A stretch of 57,634 nt of DNA. It comes from a virus. The stretch covers positions 1 to 57,634 of the IMG/VR virus record IMGVR_UViG_3300003323_000363. One strand, given 5' to 3'. Of this stretch, positions 49,642-55,537 are shown one piece after another; position 1 is the first letter of the stretch; each line of letters begins with the position of its first letter. Made by a program: the position numbers and the translations under genes. The notes beneath the pieces are model-generated. The model had not been told where the DNA came from. It worked only from the letters and a program-made list of their open reading frames with translations, and made no database searches.

Positions 49642-49670
49642 AAACCAGTTGTTTATTAACGGCTGGTTTT
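49642..49670 (+). terminator. Terminator hairpin after secreted-protein gene
   Basis: AAACCAG (49642-49648) pairs with CTGGTTT (49663-49669), followed by a T and a short T-rich stretch. It overlaps the likely -33 region of the next promoter. Confidence 0.5.
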
Positions 49671-49680
49671 GTTATATTTG
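49649..49680 (+). promoter_or_regulatory. Promoter of the leader ORF and tRNA cluster
   Basis: TTG (49649-49651), a 21-base spacer and TATATTTG (49673-49680) fit the Bacteroidota promoter. Transcription would start just before the ATG of the leader ORF at 49685. Confidence 0.55.
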
Positions 49681-49684
49681 CACT

Positions 49685-49741
49685 ATGAAAAACATGAACA
49701 ACATACATCAGCCGCAACGCCAACGACTTAATAGCCGGTGA
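49685..49741 (+). CDS. Leader peptide candidate upstream of tRNA cluster (18 aa)
   Basis: The ORF reads MKNMNNIHQPQRQRLNSR. Of its 18 codons, 10 are for Met, His, Gln, Pro or Arg (2, 1, 3, 1, 3). These are exactly the amino acids of the five tRNA genes downstream. Behind it lies a terminator, and the last codons contain GCCGG (49734-49738), which can pair with CCGGC (49774-49778) of the terminator's left arm. This looks like attenuation: ribosome position on the leader could decide between terminator and antiterminator. It is an inference, not shown. Confidence 0.45.
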   Translation: MKNMNNIHQPQRQRLNSR

Positions 49742-49770
49742 TTGTGCTTTGTATATAAATATAGCATTTG

Positions 49771-49796
49771 GCCCCGGCAATAGTCGGGGCTTTTTT
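49771..49796 (+). terminator. Terminator before the tRNA genes, attenuator candidate
   Basis: GCCCCG (49771-49776) pairs with CGGGGC (49785-49790), followed by six T. It lies between the leader ORF and the first tRNA. GCCGG at 49734-49738 can form an alternative stem with CCGGC at 49774-49778, which would break it. Confidence 0.75.
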
Positions 49797-49798
49797 AT

Positions 49799-49870
49799 TT
49801 CCCAATCGTTCAATGGATAGGATTCCCGGCTTCGAACCGGGCGATGAGAGTTCAAATCTTTCTTGGGAAA
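49799..49870 (+). tRNA. tRNA-Arg (anticodon TCG)
   Basis: Acceptor TTCCCAA/TTGGGAA, a D arm, anticodon stem CCCGG/CCGGG with loop CTTCGAA, and T arm loop TTCAAAT. All stems pair, with some G-T pairs. It reads CGN Arg codons, mainly CGA. Confidence 0.9.
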
Positions 49871-49875
49871 CAAAC

Positions 49876-49948
49876 TTTGCGATAGCTCAATCGGTAGAGC
49901 GTCTGACTTTGATTCAGAAGGTTTCAGGTTCGACCCCTGATCGCAAAA
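49876..49948 (+). tRNA. tRNA-Gln (anticodon TTG)
   Basis: Acceptor TTTGCGA/TCGCAAA, D arm GCTC/GAGC, anticodon stem TCTGA/TCAGA with loop CTTTGAT, T arm TCAGG/CCTGA with loop TTCGACC. It reads CAA and CAG. Confidence 0.92.
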
Positions 49949-49989
49949 CGAAACGAGGTGATCGCATACCTACCGTAGCCGGAAAAATT

Positions 49990-50024
49990 GGTGTCGTGTA
50001 CAGGCGGGGAAAGACCCGCACACC
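49990..50024 (+). other. Hairpin between tRNA-Gln and tRNA-Pro
   Basis: GGTGT (49990) pairs with ACACC (50020), and GCGGG (50004-50008) with CCCGC (50015-50019), around a GAAAGA loop with a 9-base bulge on one side. It may be a processing signal or a worn tRNA. The 75-base gap it lies in is much longer than the other tRNA gaps. Confidence 0.45.
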
Positions 50025-50099
50025 TGGTAGTAGAGGAGTCAGGTTTATCTCATCGGACTTGGAATCCGAGGCACGCAGGTTCGAATCCTGCCTACCAGA
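50024..50099 (+). tRNA. tRNA-Pro (anticodon TGG)
   Basis: Acceptor CTGGTAG/CTACCAG, a short D arm, anticodon stem TCGGA/TCCGA with loop CTTGGAA, and T arm GCAGG/CCTGC with loop TTCGAAT. It reads CCA and CCG. Confidence 0.9.
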
Positions 50100-50105
50100 C
50101 AAAAT

Positions 50106-50177
50106 GCAAGAAATAGTTTAACGGTAGAACACCTGCTTGTGACGCAGGCGGTCAGGGTTCGATTCCCGTTTCTTGCC
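50106..50177 (+). tRNA. tRNA-His (anticodon GTG)
   Basis: Acceptor GCAAGAA/TTCTTGC, anticodon stem CCTGC/GCAGG with loop TTGTGAC, and T loop TTCGATT. The T stem has only three clean pairs (GGG/CCC), so it may be weak. It reads CAC and CAT. Confidence 0.8.
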
Positions 50178-50181
50178 AATT

Positions 50182-50255
50182 GCGCCCGTAGCTCAGAAGG
50201 TTAGAGCAGATGACTCATAATCATCAGGTCAGCGGTTCGACTCCGTTCCGGCGCA
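50182..50255 (+). tRNA. tRNA-Met (anticodon CAT)
   Basis: Acceptor GCGCCCG/CCGGCGC with one mismatch, D arm GCTC/GAGC, anticodon stem GATGA/TCATC with loop CTCATAA, and T arm AGCGG/CCGTT with loop TTCGACT. A CAT anticodon can also be tRNA-Ile2 after modification. Confidence 0.85.
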
Positions 50256-50293
50256 CAATTTTGTTTCTTAATTTTTGTTTTGTTATTTAGCGG

Positions 50294-50373
50294 TAAACCA
50301 GTTGATGGAAGATAGGTCGGATAGGATTTGTTCCGCCTGTGACCCGATAACGAGGCTCGAATTGGCTGGTTTA
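50294..50373 (+). repeat. Inverted repeat arms before the ParB-like gene
   Basis: TAAACCAG (50294-50301) and CTGGTTTA (50366-50373) are exact inverted copies with 64 bases between. The inner bases contain a further TCGG/CCGA pair. The stretch lies in the untranslated leader of the packaging operon. It could be an RNA structure controlling it; function unknown. Confidence 0.4.
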
Positions 50374-50385
50374 AATTTTTATATC

Positions 50386-50913
50386 ATGTACCAACTTCGC
50401 CCACTGTCAGAGTTAAAGAAGTACGAGTCAAATCCCCGGACAATTACCGAGCGGGATATGGCAAAGCTGATTCAGTCGTTGCGGGATAACCCAAAGCACT
50501 TTACAGCCAGGCCACTGATACTTTCTGATAGAACCGGCGAACTCGTTATATTGTCCGGCAATCAACGATACGAGGCAGCGAAGTTTCTAGGAATGGATAA
50601 AGTGCCGACGTTCCTTTTGCAAGGGCTAACAGAGGCGCAGGAGCGCGAAATTCTCGTGAGAGAAAATGTTTCGAACGGCGAGTGGAACTACGAAGAATTG
50701 TACAACAGCTTTAATTTGAGCGAGTTGTCGGATTGGGGGCTTGACCTATCTTTCCCCGAAGAAGCCGCCGAGGCTCCCGAACAAAACGACATAGTTAGTA
50801 CAACAATAAAACTCGAATACACGCTCGAAGATTACGAGCGCGTAAAGAACTACCTCGCGTTAATTAACAGCAGCCCAGAACAGGCTGTTTGGAAGTTGTG
50901 CGGGTTTAATTAG
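50386..50913 (+). CDS. ParB-like nuclease-domain protein
   Basis: A 175-residue protein with a ParB/Srx-type N-terminal domain: LSELKKYESNPRTITERDMAKLIQSLRD, FTARPLILSDRTG and GNQRYEAAKFLGMDKVPTF. The C-terminal part is acidic. In many phages such a protein stands just before the terminase genes, perhaps as a nuclease or DNA-binding helper in packaging. The ATG at 50386 is chosen; upstream the frame is open but not plausible as coding. Confidence 0.75.
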   Translation: MYQLRPLSELKKYESNPRTITERDMAKLIQSLRDNPKHFTARPLILSDRTGELVILSGNQRYEAAKFLGMDKVPTFLLQGLTEAQEREILVRENVSNGEWNYEELYNSFNLSELSDWGLDLSFPEEAAEAPEQNDIVSTTIKLEYTLEDYERVKNYLALINSSPEQAVWKLCGFN

Positions 50914-50997
50914 ATTGCGAATACCTTGGACGCGATACCGTCCGTAAAAACTATCTTGGACCGGTATATTCCGTAATATGCCAAAAATGTGAGAGTA

Positions 50998-51384
50998 ATG
51001 GCTAATCCACAGAACATCACCCATATACAGCCGGGTGAAGTGAGGAATCCCAAAGGACGCGGCAAGGGTGTGCCAAATAGGGCTACTTTATTTAAGAAGT
51101 GGCTGTCTGCAAAAGAGGATTTTAAGAATCCTATCACGCGCGAAATACAGCGCCTATCACAAGAAGACATTGTTATTTTGGCGATACTTGCCAAAGCCCG
51201 AAAAGGCGACCTCAAATGCGCCGAGTTCCTGCTTGATGGGAAGTACGGGCCAATCTTGCGTCTTAATGGCGTTCTCAATCCAAAGGATGTACAGGAGTTG
51301 CCGCAAGACTTTTCTCCTTTCCAGGTTGTTGACCCGGTTGTTGAGGATGCGGTTATAGAAATCGAAATCGGTGCAGCTGAGTAG
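50998..51384 (+). CDS. terS: Terminase small subunit (DUF5681-like)
   Basis: A 128-residue protein just before the large terminase. It begins with HIQPGEVRNPKGRGKGVPNRATLFKKW, a glycine-, arginine- and proline-rich DNA-binding start like the DUF5681 group. A helical part (LSQEDIVILAILAKARKGDLKCAEFLLDGKYG) and an acidic end follow. It should recognise phage DNA and start packaging. The ATG at 50998 is three codons after an ATG at 50989. It overlaps the large subunit start by 14 bases. Confidence 0.75.
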   Translation: MANPQNITHIQPGEVRNPKGRGKGVPNRATLFKKWLSAKEDFKNPITREIQRLSQEDIVILAILAKARKGDLKCAEFLLDGKYGPILRLNGVLNPKDVQELPQDFSPFQVVDPVVEDAVIEIEIGAAE

Positions 51385-52756
51385 ACGCCAATGGGAAGCT
51401 ACGCAAGAGCTCGCCAACCCGAACGTAAACGCACTGCTTTACGGCGGCGCGATTCGAGGGGCTAAGACAGCGTGGCTCGCCATTACCAACTTCCAGCTTG
51501 CAATGTCTTTCCCGAATAGCCGGTGGGCTATAATGAGGGCGACGCGGCCAATGATTACGACGAACTTGCTGCCGTCGGTCAATCACTTCTATTCTCAGCC
51601 TGAAATACATCGGCACATTTCATCAATCAACAAGTCGGACCTGACTTATACCTTTAAAAACGGGTCCATTGTTCAACTTCTCGCAGAGCAGTACAACCAG
51701 GACAAGGATTTGTCCCGGTTTCATGGTATGGAGTTTAACGGGTTTTCCTTTGACGAAATATCCGAGTTCCAACAAAAAACATTTGACAAGGCTTTTGAGC
51801 GTGCCGGTGCATGGCAGAACGCAAAGCCAAATAAGTGGGGACGAAAGCCGCGCCCGTTGATCCTTGCCTCGTGCAACCCTACAAAGAACTGGGTAAAAGA
51901 GCTTTGGTATGATCCGTGGGTTGAAGGCACATTAAAGCCCGAATGGCGATACATTCCGGCAAAGATTACCGATAACCCATTCATTGATAAATCGTATCTC
52001 AAATCGCTTAAAGCGAACATGACTCCGATCAATTACAATCGGTTCGTCAATGGCGACTGGGATTACCAAGAGGCAATTGGTAACGAATGGCTTTACAAGT
52101 TCAACTACTCGCACCACGTAAGCGACAAGGTTGAACACAATCCGAACCTGCCGACGTATTTGACTTACGATTTTAACGTGCTGCCTTATATGACGTTGCT
52201 CGCGTTTCAGATAGAGGAAATCGACGGAGCGTTTTATGTCCGGTTTTACGATGAGTTTTGTTTGTCTCACCCGCAAAACTCGGCGCGCGAGGTTACGAAA
52301 GAATGGGTGAAGAAATACCGGACCGGATTACATAACCACGCGCCCGTTTACTATTGCGGTGATGCCGCCGGAGAATCCCGCGTGCCTGGCTTCGGAGATG
52401 TTAAGGCATTCAATGAGGTCCGCAAAGAGCTACAAGGTTACGTTCATAACGAGTCTGATAAAATATTCAAGCACCAGTTCTTTAATGAGTACGCGCGGAC
52501 GTTCTTAAACGACATTCTGGACCAGCGTATTCCTATCATTGTACAAATCAATGAAAAGCGGTGCCCTAAACTCATACGCGATATTCAGGAAAGCCGGGAA
52601 GACGCGACAGGAGGCCTTTTGAAGGAGAAAATACGCCATCCAGTCACTGGGCAGATGTATGAAAAGAACGGCCACTGTACCGACGCTTTCAAGTATGCTT
52701 TTCTTTCTGCTTTTCCCAAAGTATATTTGGACAAATATCACAGGAAACAGTATTGA
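51371..52756 (+). CDS. terL: Terminase large subunit
   Basis: A 461-residue packaging motor. The ATPase site reads YGGAIRGAKT (residues 24-33), with Ala where the usual P-loop has Gly before Lys. Walker B with the catalytic Glu is FSFDEI (Asp128, Glu129), and ASCNPTKN is the coupling motif. The nuclease part has Asp267 (TYDFNV), Asp331 (CGDAAGES) and Asp438 (HCTDAFKYA). It pumps DNA into the head and cuts the concatemer. The start codon is GTG at 51371, inside the small subunit gene. Confidence 0.93.
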   Translation: MQLSRRQWEATQELANPNVNALLYGGAIRGAKTAWLAITNFQLAMSFPNSRWAIMRATRPMITTNLLPSVNHFYSQPEIHRHISSINKSDLTYTFKNGSIVQLLAEQYNQDKDLSRFHGMEFNGFSFDEISEFQQKTFDKAFERAGAWQNAKPNKWGRKPRPLILASCNPTKNWVKELWYDPWVEGTLKPEWRYIPAKITDNPFIDKSYLKSLKANMTPINYNRFVNGDWDYQEAIGNEWLYKFNYSHHVSDKVEHNPNLPTYLTYDFNVLPYMTLLAFQIEEIDGAFYVRFYDEFCLSHPQNSAREVTKEWVKKYRTGLHNHAPVYYCGDAAGESRVPGFGDVKAFNEVRKELQGYVHNESDKIFKHQFFNEYARTFLNDILDQRIPIIVQINEKRCPKLIRDIQESREDATGGLLKEKIRHPVTGQMYEKNGHCTDAFKYAFLSAFPKVYLDKYHRKQY

Positions 52757-54913: not shown

Positions 54914-55537
54914 ATGAGCAGCGACAAGTCAAACACTTACCACCACGCAAAGGCAGAATTGGAAATACTTTCACTATATAGCACGGAACCCGATAACCGG
55001 CCAATTATCGAGCCATTCAGGGAAGAGATACTAGCGCTTTGTGAAAAATTTGGACGCAGTGGACAGAGCGGAGGAAGTGCACCGATTACTGCCACGGTGT
55101 TGGCTAATTCTATTAAAAAATTATTGCTACAAGAGCCGATCAGCCCTATCACTGGTATAGACGAGGAATGGATATTGGTCAGCGAGGAAGATGGTGGGCT
55201 TTACCAAAATATCCGCTGCTCGGCTTTATTTAAGCAAGGTAAAAATGGCCGCGCGTGGTACCTGGACGCCATTGTCAAAAAGACTCAAAATGGACATACA
55301 TTTCACGGTCCATTCTGGCTACGGAAAGAAGATTTTCTGACACAGAACTTGGAAAATAAGTTTCATTGCGCTCACTACGTAAAATCATTCCCTTTCACGC
55401 CGAAGACATTTTACATTGATGTAATAGAGGAAGAGGTGGGGCGAGACAATTGGGAGATGCACACGAAAGAGCCAAAACAGCTTGAAAAAGTTTGGCGGTA
55501 TTATGACAAAAAAACAACTAAATATGTACACATTTGA
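54914..55537 (+). CDS. Phage protein of unknown function (HAKxEL ... SGxSA ... PITGIDEEW type)
   Basis: A 207-residue protein of a widespread phage family. HHAKAELEILSLY, LCEKFGRSGQSGGSAPI, LLQEPISPITGIDEEWILV and GGLYQNIRCSALFK are the conserved segments. Its biochemical role is not known. It usually lies outside the virion genes, but here it lies between portal and minor head protein. It has no signal or membrane segment. Confidence 0.7.
   Translation: MSSDKSNTYHHAKAELEILSLYSTEPDNRPIIEPFREEILALCEKFGRSGQSGGSAPITATVLANSIKKLLLQEPISPITGIDEEWILVSEEDGGLYQNIRCSALFKQGKNGRAWYLDAIVKKTQNGHTFHGPFWLRKEDFLTQNLENKFHCAHYVKSFPFTPKTFYIDVIEEEVGRDNWEMHTKEPKQLEKVWRYYDKKTTKYVHI

Follow-up and report, generated by a model that had tools for sequence, protein, structure and literature searches.

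The tRNA genes of several of the Bacteroidota phages compared here are very probably controlled by ribosome-mediated transcription attenuators, each with a leader ORF carrying codons for the tRNAs of its own block. A preliminary description of the window (the whole stretch of DNA analyzed, which is 57,634 bases long and comes from an IMG/VR virus record) had proposed that the speed of translation of such codons sets the tRNA output. At the sequence level this reading is supported by the following observations: (i) the codons of the leaders track the sets of downstream tRNAs, and (ii) an antiterminator segment is present in all ten distinct leaders. Promoter firing, translation of the ORF, and read-through driven by stalling are what we infer.

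The terminase and the promoters of the window point to a Bacteroidota phage as its source. Early genes lie on the minus strand. The plus strand carries packaging and tail genes in two stretches, one running from about 49.1 kb to the last base and the other covering 1 to 25.4 kb. Near the head of this plus-strand block, a gene related to capsid cement proteins is followed by its terminator (49642-49669), a promoter, the leader ORF, and another terminator; behind these come the five tRNA genes and then the ParB-like, DUF5681, and terminase genes, in this order. Elsewhere in the window, the protein encoded at 54914-55537 strongly matches the Pfam family Tad3, an inhibitor of the type I Thoeris defence. 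The features at the head of the block are as follows:

49642-49669, plus strand: terminator of the upstream capsid-cement-like gene; a 12-pair hairpin (-14.4 kcal/mol, z -5.0) that overlaps the -33 element of the leader promoter
49649-49680, plus strand: predicted Bacteroidota sigma-A promoter; TTG 49649-49651, N21, TATATTTG 49673-49680; predicted +1 at 49685
49685-49741, plus strand: leader peptide ORF MKNMNNIHQPQRQRLNSR, predicted to be leaderless from the spacing of box, 4 nt, and ATG
49703-49726, plus strand: regulatory codon run ATA CAT CAG CCG CAA CGC CAA CGA (I H Q P Q R Q R)
49719-49738, plus strand: 5' half of the antiterminator; GCC 49719-49721, CGACT 49724-49728, GCCGG 49734-49738 (region 2)
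49744-49767, plus strand: inner hairpin of the antiterminator; GTGCT 49744-49748 with AGCAT 49763-49767
49770-49798, plus strand: intrinsic terminator; stem 49770-49791 and U-run, 9 pairs, -17.3 kcal/mol, its 5' arm being region 3
49799-49871, plus strand: tRNA-Arg(TCG)
49876-49949, plus strand: tRNA-Gln(TTG)
50024-50100, plus strand: tRNA-Pro(TGG)
50106-50177, plus strand: tRNA-His(GTG)
50182-50256, plus strand: CAT-anticodon tRNA, probably Ile2, with C4:G69 and C5:G68
50386-52756, plus strand: genes for a ParB-like protein, a DUF5681 protein (by position the terminase small subunit), and the terminase large subunit

The ORF at 49685-49741, its 18 codons, and its peptide agree with the preliminary description, which had also placed a promoter in front of it. 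A predicted promoter does precede the ORF; the sigma-70 match by which it had been recognized was set aside, and the working promoter is more likely of the Bacteroidota type, TTG-N21-TATATTTG. In Flavobacterium psychrophilum the sigma-A box spans positions -12 to -5 (PMC9723704); with the box so placed, +1 is the A of the leader ATG, and the mRNA would thus be leaderless. The same spacing of box, 4 nt, and ATG was seen again in most of the leaders compared. Leaderless mRNAs account for about 5.5% in F. psychrophilum (PMC9723704), and a precedent of a leaderless leader-peptide ORF is trpL of Sinorhizobium meliloti (PMC7298713). The other promoters of the window phage mostly have 5' leaders of 18-21 nt, and thus a leaderless start is atypical for this phage. 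A second promoter that may lie within the terminator (TAGCATTTG, one base too long) is without support.

The five tRNAs had been described as Arg, Gln, Pro, His, and Met, the same set for which codons were found in the ORF. The match holds for Arg, Gln, Pro, and His; that for Met, with two codons counted, is weak, one of the two being the start codon. The pairs C4:G69 and C5:G68 of the CAT-anticodon tRNA are what we take to be marks of tRNA-Ile2, and this tRNA is probably Ile2, matching the codon ATA at 49703-49705. If so, eight consecutive codons of the leader use exactly the five downstream tRNAs. Two sequence elements around the tRNA genes were also observed. The spacer between tRNA-Gln and tRNA-Pro (49950-50023; 74 nt) contains GC-rich hairpins and is without any match. 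The arms of the upstream terminator (49642-49669), AAACCAGTTG...GGCTGGTTT, recur around a 78-nt stretch past the last tRNA (50295-50372), perhaps as a trace of the arrival of the tRNA cassette or as a decayed tRNA-like element.

The strong terminator that had been reported between the leader ORF and the first tRNA was recovered. Near-matches of the window to sRNA families of Rfam (anti-hemB and others) mainly reflect this terminator. The reported complementarity of GCCGG (49734-49738) and CCGGC (49774-49778) stands as well, and the predicted antiterminator extends further than first described, with the pairings GCC/GGC, CGACT/AGTCG, GCCGG/CCGGC, and GTGCT/AGCAT. Region 2 stops 3 nt short of the end of the stop codon. 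The folding energy of the full leader is -27.3 kcal/mol for the antiterminator versus -30.6 kcal/mol for the terminator form. With the RNA masked to 49705-49717, as by a ribosome, the antiterminator is ahead by 0.5-2.0 kcal/mol; for stalls in the middle of the codon run the terminator is ahead at equilibrium by 1-6 kcal/mol, and stalls late in the run (CGA and beyond) would cover region 2. Since equilibrium favours the terminator for mid-run stalls, the switch must depend on the order of folding. Nascent RNA extending to 49780, with its upstream part masked, folds into the antiterminator (-16.3 kcal/mol), and according to these models the antiterminator can form first during transcription, like in other attenuators. 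The window leader contains a hairpin that is a candidate 1:2 pause or protector structure (-12.9 kcal/mol, z -0.36).

The probability of such an arrangement arising by chance was estimated for the window. A run of at least seven codons from the set first described was obtained in 0.3% (6 of 2000) of shuffles of the intergenic region and in 1.5% of 189-nt segments of the window, and 0.9% of random five-residue sets match as well. The alternative fold of the window leader was equalled by 2 of 400 shuffles and by 16 of 400 random window segments. By itself the window is thus suggestive: its codon match and fold are not decisive, and the replicates decide.

Close relatives of the window phage (L002, L003, and L007, with terminase identities of 63%, 56%, and 62%, respectively) have neither tRNAs nor a leader, and therefore the copy in the window has no direct comparison; the relatives identified by ParB likewise lack tRNAs. 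The terminator after the cement-like gene is present in L002 and L003, and the sigma-A box at this site is also found in L002. Derivation of the leader ORF from a small gene of L002 was considered and dropped, the resemblance (MxN(I/L)H) being weak. A scan of IMG/VR with a tRNA-Arg pattern gave no matches. Because the near relatives lack tRNAs, replicates were sought in named Bacteroidota phages with tRNA arrays; L056 and L057 were left out of the comparison as GC-rich. The same layout was found before nine more distinct tRNA blocks: three in Cellulophaga phage phi4:1, one in phi10:1, three in Calle_1/phi38:1, and two in Tenacibaculum phage Gundel_1. In phi4:1, each of the three tRNA blocks has a short ORF and a terminator at its head. 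The leaders are as follows:

phi4:1, leader 1: MKIQRLHLQELEQPIISGGTGV; run QRLHLQELEQP; tRNAs Pro, Glu, Gln, His, Leu, Leu, Arg
phi4:1, leader 2: MQLTKTGITVIDKTKGARAYLGDTVIG; run TKTGITVIDKTKGARA; tRNAs Ala, Lys, Ile, Gly, Met, Asp, Thr, Val, Arg(TCT), Met
phi4:1, leader 3: MKTNYCTYNNSNWSFSYDTGSVCTLGSDGLIG; run NYCTYNNSNWSFSY; tRNAs Tyr, Ser, Asn, Trp, Phe, and one with the GCA anticodon (Cys)
Calle_1/phi38:1, three leaders: MKTIMNIATDIRTKGVK..., MKTNMTYNNFSWYSNCSFSSYN..., and MNARLLHQEPLEQLRLP...; the three classes of phi4:1 in a changed order, with different leaders
phi10:1, leader: MLKKWSYSCFSYSFKNGEVIL; run WSYSCFSYSF; tRNAs Tyr, Phe, Ser(TGA)-like, Cys
Gundel_1, leader 1: MKTKLYSYSCFSSWFKNRAG; run YSYSCFSSWF; tRNAs Tyr, Trp, Phe, Ser, Cys, Ser
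Gundel_1, leader 2: MKTNNLHIQQNNLPVFLEGFLYM; run NNLHIQQNNLP; tRNAs Pro, Gln, CAT-anticodon, Asn, Leu; the Ile codon is ATA

Some of these tRNAs were missed or left unnamed by ARAGORN, and their anticodons were read from the sequence: Ala and Tyr at the block heads of Calle_1/phi38:1, Tyr and Trp of Gundel_1, and Cys and Ser(TGA) of phi4:1 and phi10:1. The two block-first tRNAs of Calle_1, Ala (TGC) and Tyr (GTA) by this reading (L064:3018 and L064:4644; the same in L065), are absent from the record annotation as well. In phi4:1, leader peptide 2 corresponds to the 3' part of gp075 (L054:2346-2465), whose annotation reads hypothetical protein. In Gundel_1, an HNH endonuclease gene lies between the terminator of the second leader and the first tRNA, as if inserted (L066:3190-3790). 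In Polaribacter phage Danklef_5 (L251:482-596), a terminator is immediately followed by a tRNA-like gene of 58 nt without most of the anticodon arm, possibly a decayed member of the class.

The preliminary description had proposed a search of relatives for leaders whose codons track their tRNA set, and such tracking was found in the nine further distinct leaders, which belong to other phage groups. Runs of 7-16 codons for the tRNAs of the own block are present in 13 leaders from five phage lineages. Individual codons follow the tRNAs: the Arg codon of leader 2 of phi4:1 is AGA, and its block has Arg(TCT), while Asn codons accompany the Asn tRNA in the second leader and block of Gundel_1 and in the Tyr/Ser leader and block of Calle_1 and phi4:1. 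Minor mismatches concern the Trp of the phi10:1 leader and the His of leader 2 of Gundel_1, for which no corresponding tRNA was found. Among the three classes, the fraction of own-block codons is highest for the cognate block in every leader of phi4:1, Calle_1, and phi38:1. When leaders were assigned to blocks in two three-block phages, the right assignment scored 49 versus 30 for the next best in phi4:1, and 56 versus 33 in Calle_1. Each codon run has a background frequency of 1e-5 to 6e-4 among windows of the same length (six frames of the loci, leaders included), and among 1338 other short ORFs in the leader loci 0 to 3, depending on the set, contain an equally long run. The peptide sequence itself is not conserved between blocks, whereas the match to the tRNAs is.

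In all ten distinct leaders, the best complement of the 5' arm of the terminator (region 2) starts 0-9 nt past the codon run and lies inside the ORF, without reaching the last base of the stop codon. Region 2 is separated from the end of the stop codon by 2-17 nt in eight leaders, and by 32 nt and 37 nt in the remaining ones; a ribosome positioned at the stop codon is thus predicted to cover region 2 in most leaders. In nine of the ten, the hairpin and U-run end 5-13 nt ahead of the first tRNA, the tenth (Gundel-b2) having the HNH gene in between. From the end of the ORF to the first tRNA there are 56-66 nt in 10 of 13 leaders; the exceptions are the Calle/phi38:1 bB pair (92 nt) and Gundel b2 with its HNH gene insert. 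With the RNA masked as by a mid-run ribosome, the antiterminator surpasses dinucleotide shuffles in every distinct leader (0-9 of 200 shuffles as good; combined Fisher p = 8e-10 for the ten). In phi4:1-b1, phi10:1, and Gundel-b1, the antiterminator of the stalled state is 4-5 kcal/mol weaker than the terminator form.

Based on these features, the following mechanism is proposed for the window. RNA polymerase would start at 49685, and the leaderless transcript would take up a ribosome at its 5'-terminal AUG. When charged Ile(AUA), His, Gln, Pro, and Arg tRNAs are plentiful, the ribosome would reach the stop codon and cover region 2 (GCCGG), the terminator at 49770-49798 would form, and the RNA would end just before the first tRNA. 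When any of these tRNAs is scarce, the ribosome would stall in the codon block and leave region 2 free to pair with the 5' arm of the terminator, so that no terminator forms and transcription reads through into the tRNAs and probably into the ParB-terminase genes. Neither a recognizable terminator nor a perfect sigma-A box was found between the tRNAs and these genes; thus, the packaging genes may share the attenuated transcript. The operon would be turned on by shortage of the tRNAs that it encodes.

A different kind of control at the head of the late operon would be factor-dependent antitermination of the lambda pR'-6S RNA-tR' type, in which a phage protein loads on the polymerase and the ORF is incidental. 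A promoter, a short RNA, and a strong terminator followed by terminase and structural genes on one strand fit this scheme; however, it leaves unexplained the codon-tRNA tracking in ten leaders and the antiterminator copies inside the ORFs, and the leaders of phi4:1 and Calle_1 head successive tRNA blocks within one array. We therefore regard it as improbable. Similarly low probability is given to a short terminated RNA or a peptide as the actual product, as for rnTrpL/peTrpL of S. meliloti, with the tRNAs served by leakage. The unit from promoter to terminator measures about 110 nt and the leaderless trpL offers a precedent (PMC7298713), but between blocks only the tRNA match, not the peptide, is conserved, and a role of the RNA or peptide in trans could add to attenuation rather than replace it. 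Slightly less probable still is an attenuator that responds to the overall state of translation (ribosome load or shut-off of initiation), with shared codon usage as the source of the codon match: any stall or failure to finish the ORF would presumably act alike, yet three leaders within one genome, with disjoint codon sets, each fit their own block. Finally, chance, with the ORF a stray one in C/A-rich sequence flanked by two terminators, is highly improbable: the window alone allows it (0.3-1.5% for a comparable codon run and 0.5-4% for the fold), but the nine other distinct leaders, in which the parts follow one another in the same way and the codons match the own block, contradict it.

No such leader or terminator accompanies the tRNA arrays of crAss001, PAU, and pT24, and phi14:2, Colly_1, Ingeline_6, Harreka_1, Peternella_1, phiST, and ARB14 contain no tRNAs above the Rfam cut-off. 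Among 78 host tRNA units used as controls (from the Flavobacteriaceae Polaribacter, Winogradskyella, and Flavobacterium), four have a hairpin and a U-run just before a tRNA. Three of them begin with tRNA-Thr(TGT) and have the hairpin at the predicted +1, with no room for an ORF; in the fourth, the hairpin lies past the end of a long reading frame. The three Thr(TGT)-first units (L180, L205, and L226) come from three genera. Within this sample of phages and host units, the leader arrangement looks phage-specific.

The proposed attenuators resemble those of the trp, his, ilv, and leu operons (Yanofsky type) in having a leader ORF with regulatory codons, a terminator, an overlapping antiterminator, and a region 2 that is covered by a ribosome at the stop codon. 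They differ from the trp/his type in several respects: (i) they are carried by phages and would control tRNA genes rather than biosynthesis, (ii) the leader is composite, each tRNA of the block being represented by codons, in place of a run for a single amino acid, and (iii) phages may have several leaders per genome with disjoint codon sets. Leaders of pheST and other aminoacyl-tRNA synthetase genes provide leader-peptide attenuation that acts on the capacity for tRNA charging; in contrast to the phage leaders, they regulate a synthetase via its single amino acid and not tRNAs. T-box riboswitches also couple tRNA charging to transcription termination, but the T-box RNA itself binds tRNA, without translation; no T-box was matched in the window with Rfam at the gathering or a relaxed threshold. 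The trpL leader RNA of S. meliloti, which has its 5' end at the AUG of a 14-aa leader ORF and its 3' end at the attenuator (PMC7298713), shares the start of the RNA at the ORF, whereas it is chromosomal and serves Trp biosynthesis through a single amino acid. The pR'-6S RNA-tR' unit of lambda similarly has a promoter-proximal terminator before late genes, but depends on Q and has no leader codons. To our knowledge, no leader-peptide attenuator controlling tRNA genes was known before. The literature search, with most subscription papers outside its scope, found no paper describing attenuation of phage tRNA genes. Leader-peptide attenuation is known, while the papers found do not describe phage tRNA genes controlled by leaders that consist of the codons of these tRNAs.

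The purpose of phage tRNAs has been disputed for decades, the views being codon compensation and substitution for tRNAs that host defence has destroyed (PMC10264068). An attenuator that responds to the tRNAs encoded behind it would tell what the phage measures, that is, shortage of those tRNAs in infection. In nature the trigger may be host defence, host shut-off, or the demand of the phage itself. It is possible rather than probable that the leaders serve as a tRNA-loss alarm, by which the matching block is turned on when host defence (anticodon nucleases, retron effectors, or PARIS) or shut-off removes particular tRNAs; ribosomes would then stall on the matching leader, and replacement tRNAs would be made one codon class at a time. 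If the attenuator reading is true, these leaders would constitute a ready codon-specific sensor of tRNA supply in Bacteroidota.
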